This document shows, in pieces, positions 41,422 through 60,915 of a DNA stretch of 64,000 nucleotides. Position 1 is the first letter of the stretch, and each line of letters begins with the position of its first letter. A model generated the notes under the pieces. That model did not search any database and was not told the origin of the DNA. It saw only the letters and a program-made list of their open reading frames with translations. The position numbers were made by a program, and so were the translations under genes. The DNA comes from Blastocystis sp. Blastoise (taxonomy: Eukaryota; Sar; Bigyra; Opalinata; Blastocystidae), in contig JBBPEB010000019.1 of NCBI GenBank assembly GCA_039096225.1, forward strand, positions 258,501 to 322,500. Reading direction: 5' to 3'.

Positions 41422-41924
41422 ATATAATAAATATAATAAAAATTAAGAGAGAAACATATAACTAGAATAATAATCTAGTCTAGCATATAGAATATAATGT
41501 AGATATATATAACTAGATGTATATAGAGTATACCTGCATAAGTAATTGAACGACGTTACCTGAAGTGCACGTGATAGTAGGAACAATAGATTCTGAAAGA
41601 GCCTATAAAGATAAGTATATAATATATATAGGATTAACAAAAAAAGTTATTATTAAACAAAAAACTAATTCATAATAGTACAATAAACAAATAAATAAAT
41701 AAATAAATATATACTTTGACTTGAAGTGAAGTATTAATATAAATCATATGAAGAGCTTTCTTATGTTCAGCTTGTTTCAGATAGGCTAAATATCCCTGAT
41801 TCTCGGCCGCTTCTGCTAAAGTGCATCCGATTGGACGAGTGTTTGTACGATATACAGGAATAGAATTAAATCCTATATATATATATCTTAATATAATATT
41901 AATAATAAGAGATGGGAGGCTATC

Positions 41925-41966
<42 letters not shown>

Positions 41967-42502
41967 TATGTATATATATATACCATCAGCATCTAATTGA
42001 GCACGACAATTCTCACTCATAAAATCTACACCCATACATATTATATTCTTACATCCATCTTTTACCTATTATTAAATATATATAATGATAGTAAACACAT
42101 AAAATAAATAAAAATAAATATAAAGAAAATAAAAATAAAATAAAATAAATAAAAATTATTCTATACCATATTACAGGCTTTTTGACCCATAACTAAAGAA
42201 TCGGCAATAGCGATATGCTTGGACTTTAATTTAGATAATAAACCTTGAATTTCAGCATCCATATAAAAGTGAGCAACAATACCAATCTTTTCAGATTCCA
42301 TAAAGTGATCTAATTCATTAACTAACTTCATATCAACGTTCAAGAATTGAGCCTGAGTCTCAGCAAACTGTCCATTAGCTTCAACTTTATCAGCATAAAT
42401 CTTTAAAGAAGGGAAAGCACCTGTGGCTATGGAACGAGAAGAAGATTTGAATGCTCTTAATGTAGCTACACGAGCACAACTTGAAAAGATTCTACTTTGC
42501 AT
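39641..42502 (-). CDS. nadA: Quinolinate synthase (NadA type) with organelle presequence
   Basis: Seven or more exons from MQSRIFSSCARVATLRAFK (42502) to SLVNAITKH (stop 39641-39643). Condenses iminoaspartate with dihydroxyacetone phosphate to quinolinate, the oxygen-independent first steps of de novo NAD synthesis, on a 4Fe-4S cluster. Blocks seen: VAHFYMDAEIQGLL, IAIADSLVMG, MGVDFMSENC, IGCTLAEAAENQGYLAYL, MIYINTSLQVK, PTITCTSGNVVQ, LQIFYGPDSYMG, CAVHHIFGQNV, LTSHLEVPTEMF, LGTEAGMV, and the cluster-binding end GCSIHGGCATCPFMKMN. The order and wording match plant/protist quinolinate synthases, without the SufE domain plants carry. The first ~30 residues are Arg/Ser-rich without acidic residues, a mitochondrion- or hydrogenosome-type presequence. 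L-aspartate oxidase (NadB), the usual partner, is not in this window. Introns hold (TAAA)n and 72-77 bp minisatellites. Confidence 0.93.
39899..40121. repeat. Intronic minisatellite, about 72-77 bp x 3
   Basis: Three near-identical copies beginning ATAATATAGAGATAAATATA inside a quinolinate synthase intron; copies differ mainly in A-run length. Confidence 0.9.
41218..41432. repeat. (TAAA)n with embedded 17-bp repeats
   Basis: Two TAAA arrays flank about five copies of a unit ending in AATATATA (ATAAATAAATAATATAT), in a quinolinate synthase intron. Confidence 0.9.
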
Positions 42503-43197
42503 TTTATATAGAAAAACTTCAAAAACAAAGCCTAAAAGCCTAAATCTAAAGACTTATTCACTATTGAATAAAGAAAGGTGTTCTTTGGTCAATTCGAGTT
42601 CCCCGTTATTTTTCCACACACAAAAAGAGAAAATATTTTTTCCCCATGATTTATGTTTCCAACATTAGATTTCTTTTGTTTTTCATTCATTTATTACTTA
42701 ATTTAACTATATACTTGCTGTATTGAATGAAACAGTTAGTTTAATGTGATATTTACTTTTTGTATTCTTTATTTATAATAAAATTATTATTTTTAAAAGT
42801 ATTTCTTTTCAATTATTTAAATTGGAGCATAACAATATAGAAAGAAGACATATGGGAGTCATTTTAAAATAAATATTTATATTAAGAAAAAAAAACAAAT
42901 TGATTTCTTTGTGCTTTTGGAAACAAAATAAACGAAACAAGATGAAAAATGAAACAAATGTACACTCGATATAAGCTCATTCAAAATGAAAGAAAAAAAG
43001 AAAAGAATTATAGATCAAAAGCAAGAAAGAAACTTTTATATTGTGCATTCATAAAGAAAGTTTTTTGTTTATATATATATAAATATAATATATTTAAGAA
43101 TAGATATTTATAACGAGGATTTAAACTACATATTTATACAATTAGAAAAAAAGTAATGTGACTAAATAAAAAATAATTCAAGGAATATTTGTATTCA
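42503..43197. promoter_or_regulatory. Intergenic region with quinolinate synthase promoter
   Basis: About 700 bp. ATCATGGGGAAAAA on the gene strand (42650-42637) and GGGGAACTC (42604-42596) lie about 140 and 95 bp upstream of the quinolinate synthase start and share the GGGAA core seen in other promoters here. No gene. Confidence 0.4.
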
Positions 43198-43979
43198 TTA
43201 AGAAATGCCACCTCCTTCAGTCCCACGGGGAGCACGTAATAATTCAGGAAGATACTTTAATTGCAACAAATTAAACATATATCTTGCCTATATATATATA
43301 TAAGAATAAAGTGATAAAAATATCAATATATATATATAAGAATAAAGTGATAAAAATATCAATATATATATATAAGAATAAAGTGATAAAAATATCAATA
43401 TATATATATAAGAATAAATTGATAAAAATATCAATATCTATATATATGTAAGAATAAAGTGATAAAAATATCAATATATATATATATAAGAATAAATTGA
43501 TAAAAATATCAATATCTATATATATATATATAAAGAATAAAGAGACTAAAAGAAGAATAATATCATACTTTCCCCGTGTTTTTCCTTGTGTTTTCTAGTC
43601 TTACTCCAAAGGCGCGGAATTGTTCTCGAAGTCGATTTTGAATATAAGGGAAAATAGTGGGTGAAGACCCTTGTAATTCTATAGTAGGGAAAGGAGTCAT
43701 ATCTCCCCCGCGGGAATAGTAATTATTGTTAGGAAGAGGTAAAGAAGTAGAAATAGTATTTGAATTTGCGTTCCCGTGGTTATTAGAGGACAGATGTGTT
43801 GGTGAATAAAGATGAATTGATTGTTTTAATGTAATTAACATACCTGTTCTATCTTTACCGGATTTACACATAGTAATTGTTGATCCATAGATCTGATTCA
43901 TTATATCTTCAGTATCTATAAAGACTTTTGGCTGTTCATTATAACTGGAAGATGTTATATACATCTTAAGAAGCTAAAG

Positions 43980-44015
<36 letters not shown>

Positions 44016-45275
44016 GATGACATTATAATTTTATACGTTATATATATTTAAGAAATCATTAGGTAGTTTAGGAATAGTATTCTTTTCGAGTTCTTTTGGT
44101 TCTATAGTAGGTTCATATATAGATGTATAAATATAATGACCATTTTCTATTCCTACATCCTCTTCTACATGGTATTCTTCATGATTTCTCGTTCTAAGTA
44201 AATATTGCATAATAAATAAGATATTTTGAATATTCATGGCTTGTGTTGAATGTGACTTTCGCTTTATATCCGCAATTCTCTGATTCACATCTACACCCTA
44301 TACAATAAATATAAGTAGAATATGTATAATAAGTATAATAAGTAGAATAAGTATAATATGTATAATAAGTATAATAATTATAATATATATAATAATTATA
44401 ATAAGTAGAATATATAATAATATATGTACAAGAGAGATTGTGAATGGACAAAGTGTAATCACTCTATCAGCATATTGCGCGGGAATAGGATTGGCGGGAG
44501 CCATAAGTGGAAGAGTTATATATAAATATTTATTCTCTATACACATATCTACAGTGTCTCCAGTTTGATGAGGTATACAAAAGTTATCACCTTGAATATA
44601 ATGGAATCGTAGACGGACCATTTTGAGCATATATACAGATATATATAGATCTTCAATCATTCCTTCCTCTTTTCCTGAATAGGACAATAACGACTGATAT
44701 AAAATCTATATAGATAGTAATATATATAGTAATATATATATAGTAATATATATAAATATATAAATATATATATACAGGATATCCATAGAGATAGTAATAA
44801 CTTAATAGTGATGAAAAAGAGGGCTGGGATATATAATAATTCATATGTTGAGTGAAAGAGGATATAAATATGGAGAGTGCTTGAGAGAAACAAATATCCA
44901 GTCTGTTGTCTATATATATATTACTTTTATATATCTCTTCACGGCCCTCAACATCTTCCATCTCATGATTCTATAGAATAATAATAATAATAATAATAAT
45001 AATATATATTATAAATAGATTAATACTAATATATATATATACATGAATAGCGTTTTCAATCTTTCTTTTATAGGCTACATCTGTATATATACCTCCATTA
45101 ATATATCCATAAACATAGGATGTAGGGGAGCCCGCGCTTGGGAAGAAATGGAGGGAACAAGGAGACATACTACATAATTGTTCCAGAGACATGAGAGGAT
45201 CTCGTTTATATATATACATATATCCCTCATGTAGATTTGTAGGGAGAAATGAACACTCGGGTTTTGCCTTATAGA

Positions 45276-45327
<52 letters not shown>

Positions 45328-45471
45328 GCATGATAATATCAAGTATATTAATTATTATCTTACGAAGGTTTGAATGTAAAATTATTGATCTGATTGGTTG
45401 CTATTGTAGTATGGCACGTGTCAATAATGGAACAATGAAGTGAAATATCATGATACACACGCTATAAATAA

Positions 45472-45502
<31 letters not shown>

Positions 45503-45505
45503 AAG

Positions 45506-45554
<49 letters not shown>

Positions 45555-45640
45555 TACCTTGAGTTCTTTGTATATAGAATGTAAATATACATCAAGAGAT
45601 AGAATACCTTCTGCAGAAGTACATTTATATAATCCCAAAT

Positions 45641-45678
<38 letters not shown>

Positions 45679-47272
45679 TATTATATATATATACAGTATC
45701 ATAATAATTTTGATATTTTTTGATTTTCTTTTCACATTCTTTTAAGTCATGTTTTCGGAATGGTGAGATAAGTTCCATATAACCACGGGGAATATCAAAT
45801 GTATAACTATATATATATAAAGAGTAAAATAAGTTATAGTATACAAATGTATATAAGTATATATATATAAATAAATGTATATAAGTATATATAAATAAAT
45901 ATATATACTCAGATTCATTAATATATTCTGATATACAGAAGAGAGAGGCTTCTTTGTCTAATGAATACATGAAATGAGCCGATGTATATCTATAGAAGAG
46001 AGGATAGAAATATAGAGGCATATTATACTTATACTTATTATGATTATGATTATGATTATAATGATTATTATAATGATTATGATTATGATTATATATACCT
46101 TCCGTGTTTAGCTGGCTGAGCTCTGACAAGAGTAACCCCAAGTTGGGGAAAAGACGAGAGATCCATTTCTTTCTTTAACTGACAGGAGTAATTAGGTTTC
46201 TTTAATAATTCATTCATACTTAGAGTATACCTAGTAATAAACTCAGGGGTCTATATATATATATAGTAATAAGGATTAATAATAAACATAATAAAATTAT
46301 TAAACATAATAAACATAATAAATTAATGAAATAAATAAACATAATAAACATAATAAACATAATAAACATAATAATATGATTCATTATATATATGTATATA
46401 TATATGTATATATATACATCTATAGGCATATGTTTTGGTTGTATCACATTGATATCACTCACTTCTTTTAATATAAATAGGAAGTTGACATCCAGGAGCT
46501 TCTTTGGAGGGATGGAAGACGTTATAGATTCTGATTTCTTTGTCAGCATTGATTGTAACTTTCCAGTCAATGTCAACTTCATCTCCTCTTGATTAGGTCG
46601 CATAGGTAGTTCACAAGTAACAGCTACATTATAATGTAATCCTGGGTTAATATTACACATCTCTATTGTATCTGTTACTCCCACCTATATATATATATAA
46701 GAGAATAATTAATATATATATATAAATATAACAATAATATAATAATAAATATAAAAATAAGTATAATTTATACTTCTATCCATTCTTCCCCGCGGGGACC
46801 CCGCTCACTCTCTGTGACATATTGATAATATGTATATATACATATACCCTTCCCAGTAGCGCGATAGGAACCACCAAAAATATATATATCAAAGATACAC
46901 TATATATATATATCAGGATATAGTCTATATATATATATATATACTTGAGAAAGTAGATCTGTACCACACCGATCGGAATCCTTAACATCATCTCCCACGG
47001 GAATCTTAAACTTTTGAAATTGAATAGGATTCCCACGGTAATAACGAAGATCTGAAGCCCCAACCATATCTATATTGATTACTGATTTTGATTCTTTTAA
47101 TAATGGAAGATTATCAGAACTTGAATTATTGTTTTTGGATGAATCAGATATTAATAATTGGGAATTCAAATCATTCCTATATATATATTTGGATAAACAA
47201 TAATTTAGAAGCAAAAAAATGAAAAATAAAAAAAAAATGAAAAATAAATAACAATAATAAAAATAATAAACA

Positions 47273-47342
<70 letters not shown>

Positions 47343-47716
47343 CATTTGTTCATCAAGAGTTAGGGATGATTGATAGGAGTGAATAGCTCTGCAGGGATTG
47401 AGAGAAGACTGTGAAGATAGGGGATATATTATATAGTATACATATTATATATAACTGAAAAAATACAGAATAATATATATATATATAATTGAAAAAAAAA
47501 TAGAATAATAAATATATATATATACATCTTTGTGCCACATCATGAGGAGAACGGATATATAATTGAAGGAGAAAGGAAGAAGATGGAAGCATATAAATAC
47601 TAACCAAATAACAAGAGAGAAATGAAAAAATATATTACTATATATATATATATATATAGAATGAATTAATAATAATAGTATTAGAATAAGTTTCTTAAAT
47701 GTTTATTATAATAATA

Positions 47717-47776
<60 letters not shown>

Positions 47777-48982
47777 TCGAGAGCATAGAAGAGATATATA
47801 ATAAGATTAAGGACACATAAGGACATAGATATAGTTATTGTAGTCACTTGGCGTAATATTATCATTCGATTCTATATATAATAGTGATAATAAATTAATA
47901 AACATAATAAATATATAAATATAATAAACATAATAATGATAATAAATGTTATAAAAATTATAAACATTATAAACATAATATATATATATATATATGTACC
48001 TCAAGTTGTTTTCCTTCTGCTATAGTAAGTAATCTAGAACATAATATAGAGGAAAATCCTAAAAACATAACTGAAATTAACGTAATCACAAGGATATAAA
48101 TCCATTCTGGAACACTAATATGTACATAATCTACAAATATAACATCCTATAGAGTATATAGAATTCATTAAGATATGTTGAAATAAAAATTAAATTAAAA
48201 ATTAAAAAAAAAAAATAAATAATAAATTATTATTATTATTATTATATATACTTGATTAAAAACAAGATAGGCTAATACTGCATATAGACTCCAAGTCAAT
48301 AGAATTAAAGTACAATAAATATATTTCAATAATCCTGTTCCTTTCTTTGTTATTACAAATAAAAACCTATAAATATTTATATATATATTTACATAAAGAA
48401 TAAATAGAATCGAAGAAACAACTTCTATAATATTATTATATTATGATTTATATACTTAGACCAGTATAGAATGACTGTAAGTAATGTAGAAATATCAAAT
48501 GTATTCTCAAGACCAAAAAAAAGAAACCTAAAAAATAATAATAATAACTAGAAATTTAAAAATATCACAAAATAGGAATCATTAAGAAATCAGATCTCAA
48601 AATTTTTTTCACAGACATGAAATAAAATATAATGATTTACTTTACGAATCCACTATAATCTGATTGAAAATTGATAATGAGATTAATGAGTCCTAAAACA
48701 CATCGTATTGAAATAAATGCATAGAACCTATAGAGTCATTGAGACAAGAAACAATATATATAATAATAAAGGTTAAATACAGTCTTTTGATCGTTACAGG
48801 AAACAATTTTTGTTTATAAAACCGAACCTATTAAATAATACATCGTAACAACATAAGGATATACAACTGCAACTACAAAGCATATTATGAACACTGAAGA
48901 TCCAAAACAAACACTTAGCAATTTATTTAAAGCGTCATTGTTTGTATCTGATATGAGAGTTGATTCTGAAAGATATACCATT
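43198..48982 (-). CDS. Seven-transmembrane protein fused to INPP4-type phosphoinositide phosphatase
   Basis: About 20 exons, roughly 1,200-1,300 residues. Start MVYLSESTLISDTNND (48982). Seven hydrophobic helices follow: VFIICFVVAVVYPYVVTMYY, YAFISIRCVLGLINLIINF, FDISTLLTVILYW, YIYCTLILLTWSLYAVLAYL, WIYILVITLISVMFLGFSS, VTTITISMSLCVLNLIIYLF, and LVIWLVFICFHLLPFSFNY, with basic loops and a pattern like plant TOM1/THH1 or TPRA1-type 7TM proteins. Reading frame continues through TA-rich introns into a Ser/Asn linker, a C2-like beta region (SVINIDMVGASDLRYY; FDIYIFGGSYRATGKG; LHYNVAVTCELPM), then ISLGVDVNQRIADIKRKS and the catalytic P-loop CKSGKDRTGM (Cys codon 43868-43866). The end, ARYMFNLLQLKYLPELLRAP then GTEGGG, matches the INPP4 C-terminus. 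INPP4 enzymes hydrolyse the 4-phosphate of PI(3,4)P2. Fusion of a receptor-like module to it is the main novelty of the window. Confidence 0.75.
43291..43535. repeat. Intronic minisatellite, about 38 bp x 6
   Basis: Six copies of a unit containing AAGAATAAAGTGATAAAAAT and ATCAATATATATATAT in the last intron of the 7TM-INPP4 gene. Confidence 0.92.
47281..47338. repeat. (AT)n microsatellite in an intron
   Basis: About 29 pure AT units between the linker exons of the 7TM-INPP4 gene; another tract lies at 47720-47772. Confidence 0.95.

Positions 48983-57533: not shown

Positions 57534-60915
<3,382 letters not shown>

Follow-up and report, generated by a model that had tools for sequence, protein, structure and literature searches.

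A seven-transmembrane domain joined to an INPP4-type phosphatase in an apparent stramenopile: a candidate GPCR-INPP bigram

GPCR-bigrams are a known class of proteins, on which functional studies are few in the literature cited here. A 2018 survey (van den Hoogen et al., PMC5784254) described those of the GPCR-INPP type in Nannochloropsis gaditana and in oomycetes, with seven given for Phytophthora infestans, one to nine for other oomycetes and seven for N. gaditana. In that survey, which selected bigrams through topology and domain screens, P. infestans has 44 bigrams, N. gaditana is without GPCR-PIPKs, Aureococcus is the only stramenopile outside the oomycetes listed with GPCR-PIPKs, and the two bigram types are reported together in oomycetes only (PMC5784254). 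The GPCR-PIPK bigrams, including Dictyostelium RpkA and the oomycete GPCR-PIPKs, likewise combine a seven-transmembrane (7TM) domain and a phosphoinositide enzyme in one protein, the enzyme being a kinase. Animal INPP4A and INPP4B carry an N-terminal C2 domain and the P-loop motif CKSAKDRT (PMC3248162).

In the window, the whole stretch of 64,000 nucleotides that was analysed, a minus-strand gene of 22 exons is predicted to encode a 1,115-residue protein that is probably a bigram of the GPCR-INPP type, with a 7TM architecture and a phosphatase of the INPP4-family CX5R 4-phosphatase class (Table 1). As in the GPCR-INPPs of oomycetes and N. gaditana, apparently members of the same supergroup, the 7TM domain is N-terminal and the inositol polyphosphate phosphatase is C-terminal and predicted to be intracellular. 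The likeness is drawn from architecture; the survey passages cited here do not name the INPP class or 7TM family of those proteins. Against the counts given above for oomycetes and N. gaditana, one GPCR-INPP was detected here among the best candidates scored. Because fusions of this kind have been found in water moulds before, the bigram is a further example of an established design, not a new design. The first-pass annotation had called the fusion apparently undescribed, which holds at most for this host, given the GPCR-INPPs in print from oomycetes and Nannochloropsis; its analogy to GPCR-bigrams is supported (PMC5784254).

At the sequence level, the fusion of the 7TM domain to the INPP4-type phosphatase is real. 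All 21 introns are GT-AG and all junctions are in phase, with no frameshift and no internal stop in the 22-exon model. As the first-pass annotation had read from the letters, seven hydrophobic segments lie in short exons (eight of them, 48981-47526), the splice phases stay open from the helices into the linker, and the phosphatase P-loop CKSGKDRTGM is present. Three in-phase versions of exons 1-3 are possible (models A, D and E), and model D was preferred to model A for exons 2-3 because its second intron matches the local intron pattern better. The two models differ at residues 55-73 (A numbering; 13 residues in D) and are offset by 6 afterwards. Model A was the query for the INPP4A comparison, the Pfam search that includes C2, two PDB sequence searches (one of them by phmmer with the phosphatase half) and the paralogue searches.

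Table 1 Features of the predicted bigram gene (model D; positions are those of the window)
Feature	Position	Strand	Basis
Whole gene, 22 exons, 1115 aa; start at 48981, stop codon ends at 43198	43198..48981	-	gene model + gene finder
Exon 1 with the start codon; encodes a short acidic N-terminus and helix 1	48865..48981	-	
Exon 2: first inside loop RFYKQKLFPVTIKR; alternative in-phase versions exist	48781..48827	-	
Exon 3, coding for helix 2 plus the first outside loop	48641..48727	-	
Exons 4-8 with introns: helices 3 to 7	47526..48527	-	
Exon 8: helix 7	47637-47526	-	
Junction intron 8, GTATATAT...CTTCACAG, GC 0.15	47409..47525	-	
Exon 9, 65 bases: linker, phase kept with exons 8 and 10	47344..47408	-	
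Junction intron 9, GTATGTAT...ATATATAG, GC 0.08, (TA)n	47177..47343	-	
Exons 10-16 with introns: middle region, no fold assigned	45364..47176	-	
Exon 17: FLPTNLH block, resembles provisional INPP4A sequence	45043..45277	-	
Exons 18-21 with introns: catalytic region of INPP4 type, colinear to the last (C-terminal) third of the provisional INPP4A sequence	43569..44970	-	
P-loop CKSGKDRTGM, C987 to R993	43839..43868	-	
Exon 22, with the stop codon; encodes the conserved C-terminal stretch ARYMFNLLQLKYLPELLRAPRGT	43198..43287	-	

The catalytic half agrees with its first assignment to the INPP4 type in its intact Cys and Arg, in its motif class (PMC3248162) and in its similarity to INPP4A, for which a provisional human reference sequence served. 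Its CX5R P-loop is of the CKSxKDRT type, with Cys, Lys and Arg all intact, and reads CKSGKDRTGM against CKSAKDRT in the animal enzymes. Comparison with the provisional INPP4A sequence gave a blastp E value of 4e-18 over residues 736-1117 (model A) in a one-sequence database and an alignment score of 194 against a shuffle maximum of 61 (n = 200), with 22% identity in the aligned part. The catalytic region and the C-terminal block are colinear with that reference sequence, which has the P-loop class, the FLPTNLH block and the C-terminal block in common with the bigram. INPP4A/B begin with a C2 domain and the bigram with a 7TM domain, which INPP4A/B are not known to have. A stretch read earlier as a C2-like region did not bear that reading out: Pfam gave no C2 domain at E ≤ 10, and against the provisional human INPP4A sequence the stretch 301-560 (model A) scored 34, no better than shuffles (37.6 ± 5.0). 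Because no C2 was found, the INPP4-type label is given to the catalytic half only, and the full-length protein is not classed as an orthologue of INPP4A/B. Against PDB, phmmer returned 13 rows for the phosphatase half, at chance level (best E 0.42), and another sequence search with the bigram protein returned one row (E 0.6). The bacterial effector 4-phosphatases SopB and IpgD, which are injected bacterial proteins, have the same general P-loop class.

In the seven-helix domain, Lys and Arg make up 14 of 79 inside loop residues versus 2 of 65 outside, an N-out/C-in bias with a one-sided Fisher p of 0.004 for an orientation chosen to fit, or about 0.009 two-way. This charge pattern predicts that the N-terminus faces outward and that the phosphatase lies in the cytosol. 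No Pfam-A family, GPCR families included, matched the domain at E ≤ 10, and a comparison with PDB chains gave 0 rows at the same threshold; the label "receptor" is therefore owed to topology and to nothing else. TOM1/THH1 (PF06454) and TPRA1 proteins, of which the helix pattern had reminded the first-pass annotation, have seven helices as well; kinship to them is putative, and the domain has no Pfam match at E ≤ 10. A PF06454 profile search of the bigram's own genome was empty, a kind of search that says little on absence. Any likeness was weak: a provisional TPRA1 sequence scored 63, a value equalled or exceeded by 12 of 400 shuffles (reversed query 52), and a provisional TOM-like one scored 51, with 25 of 400 (reversed query 42). 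In the same genome, two gene models for GPCR-PIPKs, the proposed partner enzymes of GPCR-INPPs, were predicted. A derivation of the 7TM domain from these receptors found no support, as scores of 36 and 44 were equalled or exceeded by 291 and 120 of 300 block shuffles, and the reversed query scored 72 and 47. The two GPCR-PIPK receptors scored 108 against each other, which 0 of 300 block shuffles reached. Judged by these comparisons, the seven-helix domain is without detectable kinship to the two GPCR-PIPK receptors, from which the bigram also differs in carrying a phosphatase instead of a kinase.

It is improbable that the locus holds two adjacent genes, of which the first, with the 7TM domain, would end near 47500 and the second, for a soluble INPP4, would start downstream, for instance at the first residue of MVGASDL (Met323 in model D). 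With splice-site weights taken solely from 12 introns that lie downstream of the junction, a gene finder connected the 7TM exons with the linker in 10 of 11 unconstrained settings (five of six loose, five of five stricter) and returned the single gene 48981-43198 in four of the five stricter ones. When one or the other junction intron was disallowed, the score fell by 8.9-26.7 log units in all four constrained runs. The single gene of the first-pass annotation is supported. The gene finder favours an end of exon 8 at 47601, which removes helix 7, and omits or shortens some phosphatase exons. A split near 47543 did appear in one of the six loose settings, with very cheap new genes, and three of the four runs with a junction intron forbidden began a second gene at 47067. 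Both junction gaps, however, are intron-like in composition (GC 0.15 and 0.08, TATATATA counts 3 and 8; in the spacers flanking the gene, GC 0.28 and 0.21, counts 0 and 1). In addition, the exon frames contain no in-frame ATG from the end of exon 8 to residue 323 except the last Met codon of exon 9, divided AT|G by junction intron 9, and two genes would leave residues 264-322 open and in phase without reason. A decaying or inactive phosphatase retained as a scaffold, comparable to P-Rex proteins, in which the INPP4-like domain is inactive, is very improbable. The low-complexity insert after the P-loop and the identity of just 22% to the provisional INPP4A sequence in the aligned part would fit such decay, but the P-loop Cys, Lys and Arg are present, the conserved C-terminal block is retained and the 22 exons are free of frameshifts and internal stops.

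As a GPCR-INPP bigram, the protein would be a single polytopic chain with the seven-helix domain N-out and the INPP4-family phosphoinositide 4-phosphatase on the cytosolic side, where the enzyme would take the 4-phosphate off PI(3,4)P2 to give PI3P at whichever membrane carries the bigram. A ligand or other cue on the helices may alter phosphatase activity or location, and the phosphatase may counteract the same-genome GPCR-PIPK kinases, as proposed for oomycetes. That the helices regulate the enzyme has about an even chance, lower than the architecture and the enzyme class, because seven helices alone do not demonstrate ligand sensing. With the same architecture and a different role for the helices only, these might instead only tether the phosphatase to one membrane, as an anchor or as a 7TM domain that is no receptor, like a TOM1/TPRA1-type scaffold or trafficking protein, without ligand control. 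This alternative, which we hold to be doubtful though of some weight, is favoured by the missing GPCR match in Pfam, the lack of detectable kinship to the same-genome GPCR-PIPK receptors, the weak likeness to the TPRA1 and TOM-like sequences, and the very short N-terminus and outside loops. Against it, other stramenopile 7TM-INPPs are classed as GPCR-bigrams in the survey, which poses their ligand sensing as an open question (PMC5784254).

The first-pass annotation had looked to Neocallimastigomycota for relatives of the host. The host EF-1alpha ORF is without the opisthokont signature, an insert of about 12 residues: in the EF-1alpha 2 chain, the counterpart of query residues 1-433 spans residues 1-443, 10 more. 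A TPI-GAPDH fusion is encoded in one 599-aa ORF with TIM and Gp_dh domains, its mitochondrial targeting being judged by eye, and mitochondrial TPI-GAPDH fusions are described from stramenopiles, three cercozoans and Thecamonas (PMC3527533). EF-1alpha and TPI-GAPDH together speak against Neocallimastigomycota. The host polyubiquitin has no junction insert; typical Rhizaria have one, and Rhizaria are disfavoured on this ground. Because of the EF-1alpha without opisthokont insert and the TPI-GAPDH fusion, the host is most likely a stramenopile and apparently not a fungus; an apusomonad is a possible alternative.

The locus matters mainly because both bigram types co-occurred only in oomycetes in the 2018 survey (PMC5784254). 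One detected phosphatase bigram and two predicted kinase bigrams in a further apparent stramenopile would hint that the two types are not paired in oomycetes alone, and would provide, for tests of direct lipid-signal switching by such receptors, a set much smaller than the 44 bigrams of P. infestans. It is an unlikely, bolder proposal that a single-copy receptor-phosphatase of an undescribed 7TM family, together with the GPCR-PIPKs, serves this anaerobic-looking stramenopile as a direct receptor-to-lipid switch without heterotrimeric G proteins, in which kinase bigrams would write the lipid signal and the phosphatase bigram would erase it.

An exon-wise genome search for G-alpha gave three rows, all Arf/Arl-like by eye, and one for PF00792 (PI3K C2) did not find this domain, which is generally expected in any eukaryote through Vps34; exon-wise negatives such as that for G-alpha are therefore no evidence of absence. 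Six peptide patterns, a probe that finds close relatives only, matched none of the viral contigs, and scanning the window for tRNAs and for Rfam families at gathering scores gave nothing. No paralogue of the bigram was found among the best candidates scored in three genome searches, in which 21 of 21, eight of eight and five of seven rows were the bigram's own locus. The two off-locus rows have an E value of 0.206, and the one inspected resembles a surface protein.

Running from 48981 to 43198 on the minus strand, the window gene can be read as 22 exons and 21 GT-AG introns with every junction in phase, so that the seven-helix exons and the INPP4 phosphatase are joined in frame, as the first-pass annotation had proposed. 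Exons 1-3 allow three in-phase versions (models A, D and E), and the product length is 1121 aa for model A, which was built first by hand, and 1115 aa for model D. Two features led to the choice of model D: its second intron, of 53 bases, has the GTATTTAA start and CTCTATAG end of the gene's other introns, and its first inside loop is positively charged; stricter gene-finder runs favour version E's acceptor and donor instead. Seven hydropathy segments lie ahead of residue 250 in model D, and similarly in model A, matching the seven hydrophobic segments noticed at first reading; an extra segment at 426-444 is barely at threshold (1.3). Lysine and arginine account for 14 of 79 residues in the inside loops (including 30 tail residues) versus 2 of 65 in the outside loops (one-sided p=0.004, with the orientation picked to fit), and acidic residues show the opposite pattern (3 inside versus 10 outside). 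The predicted topology places the N-terminus outside and the phosphatase in the cytosol.

The alternative that the 7TM exons (to exon 8) and the phosphatase beyond linker exon 9 are two genes was weighed with a small purpose-written gene finder, which took codon usage from other genes of the same genome, splice-site weights from 12 introns, all downstream of the junction, and its background from those introns and the spacers on both sides of the gene. Loose penalties fragmented the region, yet 5 of 6 such settings still connected the 7TM exons with the linker; under stricter penalties they were connected in 5 of 5, with a single gene at 48981-43198 in 4. One gene was again returned by a later run, which was circular, being trained on the whole window gene. 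Blocking intron 47525-47409 or 47343-47177 carried a score penalty of 18.7, 8.9, 26.7 and 16.5 log units across four runs, three of which gave two genes while the fourth kept one gene via another route. The gene finder is crude, its single gene having 21 exons and 978 aa: it closes exon 8 at 47601, losing helix 7 in a piece with exon-like GC (about 0.36, counted by eye), drops phosphatase exon 44970-44776, which falls within the INPP4A similarity, and drops or shortens parts of 45644-45558, 45277-45043 and 43973-43569.

Since introns and spacers are handled identically by the gene finder, it is blind to their composition, which provides a separate check. Exons of the window gene have a GC content of 0.24-0.40 and introns of 0.03-0.25, and TATATATA occurs at least once in 17 of the 21 introns. 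The two junction gaps have GC contents of 0.15 and 0.08 with 3 and 8 copies of TATATATA, compared with 0.28 and 0.21 and 0 and 1 copies in the two adjacent spacers. Moreover, a separate gene downstream would have no early start codon: beyond exon 8, and leaving aside a Met codon that an intron splits AT|G, residue 323 is the first Met in frame.

In Pfam, the protein had no match above the cut-off, only PF13350 at E 0.036 (14.5 of 22.2 bits). Against an approximate human INPP4A reference sequence, blastp aligned residues 736-1117 (E=4e-18, 22% identity) and a second block around FLPTNLH (residues 625-698, E 0.001), and the local score was 194, compared with at most 61 among 200 shuffles; residues 1-300 and 301-560 had no match to it. 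PMC3248162 gives CKSAKDRT as the INPP4 motif, and the P-loop CKSGKDRTGM retains its Cys, its Arg and both of its Lys residues, bearing out the proposed phosphatase type. At the level of sequence, the architecture and an intact catalytic motif are established, and the protein is presumably an active phosphatase.

Passages of PMC5784254 and PMC6033456 describe such GPCR-INPP bigrams, 7TM-phosphatase proteins, in oomycetes (P. infestans has seven, other oomycetes between one and nine) and in N. gaditana (seven, with no kinase-type GPCR-PIPK), and propose that GPCR-PIPK and GPCR-INPP act as a couple; the window gene therefore adds an example to a known class. Among the papers searched, the term GPCR-INPP was found only in these two, no other publication on 7TM-INPP4 fusions was found among titles and abstracts, and the main text of a choanoflagellate GPCR survey (PMC12716839) contains neither "phosphatase" nor "INPP". 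Because INPP4, but no robust homologue of INPP5, is present in oomycetes according to part of PMC9694693, their GPCR-INPPs are probably INPP4-type as well.

In the same genome, one INPP4-like gene was found among the best candidates, and PIP5K matches (9 rows) fell at four places. Gene-finder models at two of these, on contigs C17 and C1, have hydrophobic segments upstream, and both are predicted to be GPCR-PIPK bigrams. For the C17 product, the PIP5K match has a value of 9.3e-43, and the C1 model also takes in an upstream gene that looks unrelated. At the places on C21 and C3, a view of the open frames of at least 40 aa showed no clear 7TM beside the kinase. The 7TM parts of the two candidates are related to one another (0 of 300 shuffles), and relatedness of the window gene's 7TM to either was not detectable. 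G-alpha was not found in the genome by a search that also missed PI3K, so this is no evidence of absence.

Positions of other genes discussed, in the window or on contigs C1, C8 and C17 (L055 and L056, stretches of the same genome)
Feature	Location	Strand	Remark
GPCR-PIPK candidate	C17:490709-492392 + upstream (L056)	minus	seven hydrophobic segments before PIP5K domain
GPCR-PIPK candidate	C1:219829-222732 + upstream (L055)		six hydrophobic segments before PIP5K domain
TPI-GAPDH; second TIM match	C8:413227-413943 and C8:1595289-1596005		599-aa fusion ORF; second TIM match in 615-aa open frame
Quinolinate synthase NadA	window 41670-42553	minus	PF02445 match (E 4.3e-11, pieces of exons joined)
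PEP synthase/pyruvate phosphate dikinase-like gene	window 57588-58439 + 60181-60912	plus

PI(3,4)P2 is a substrate of INPP4 enzymes, as stated in parts of PMC6563779 and PMC9694693. Most likely, the window-gene protein would remove this lipid at its own membrane under the influence of its 7TM domain, acting opposite to the kinase bigrams; we infer the substrate, the control of the enzyme by the 7TM domain and the existence of a ligand. The main rival to such a receptor-phosphatase, and a plausible one, is that the helices serve as a membrane anchor alone.

The assembly containing the window comprises 33.3 Mb in 34 contigs, and a TTAGGG array was present at 1 of 10 contig ends examined. An EF-1alpha insert is a signature of opisthokonts; host EF-1alpha is without it, in agreement with a 10-residue difference from the EF-1alpha 2 chain. 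Typical Rhizaria differ from an insert-free polyubiquitin junction, and the host's polyubiquitin units adjoin without an insert, which speaks against such a host. TPI and GAPDH are fused in a single ORF, a fusion known from stramenopiles, three cercozoans and Thecamonas (in part of PMC3527533). The lack of the EF-1alpha insert and this fusion argue against the initial assignment to Neocallimastigomycota, and a stramenopile, perhaps an anaerobic one, is the best reading. Further TIM matches lie on C1 in several short frames. NadA, which is unusual among eukaryotes, hints at anaerobic life; its gene adjoins the window gene and its N-terminus looks mitochondrial by eye.

The GC-rich palindrome CCCRYGGG, with one mismatch allowed, occurs 12 times in the window (expected 3.0 ± 1.6; reached by 0 of 100 shuffles, for a pattern picked after being seen), 7 of them within the window gene, between 43222 and 47039, and 6 of these exonic; the stricter TYCCRYGGRA was not clearly enriched in the window (1 versus 0.19). 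At the end of contig C18 (stretch L028), tandem repeats encode a cysteine-rich unit, by eye possibly of a large surface protein. The first frame of the dikinase-like gene matches PPDK_N (E 8.7e-60), and the second resembles by eye the C-terminal part of such a gene.
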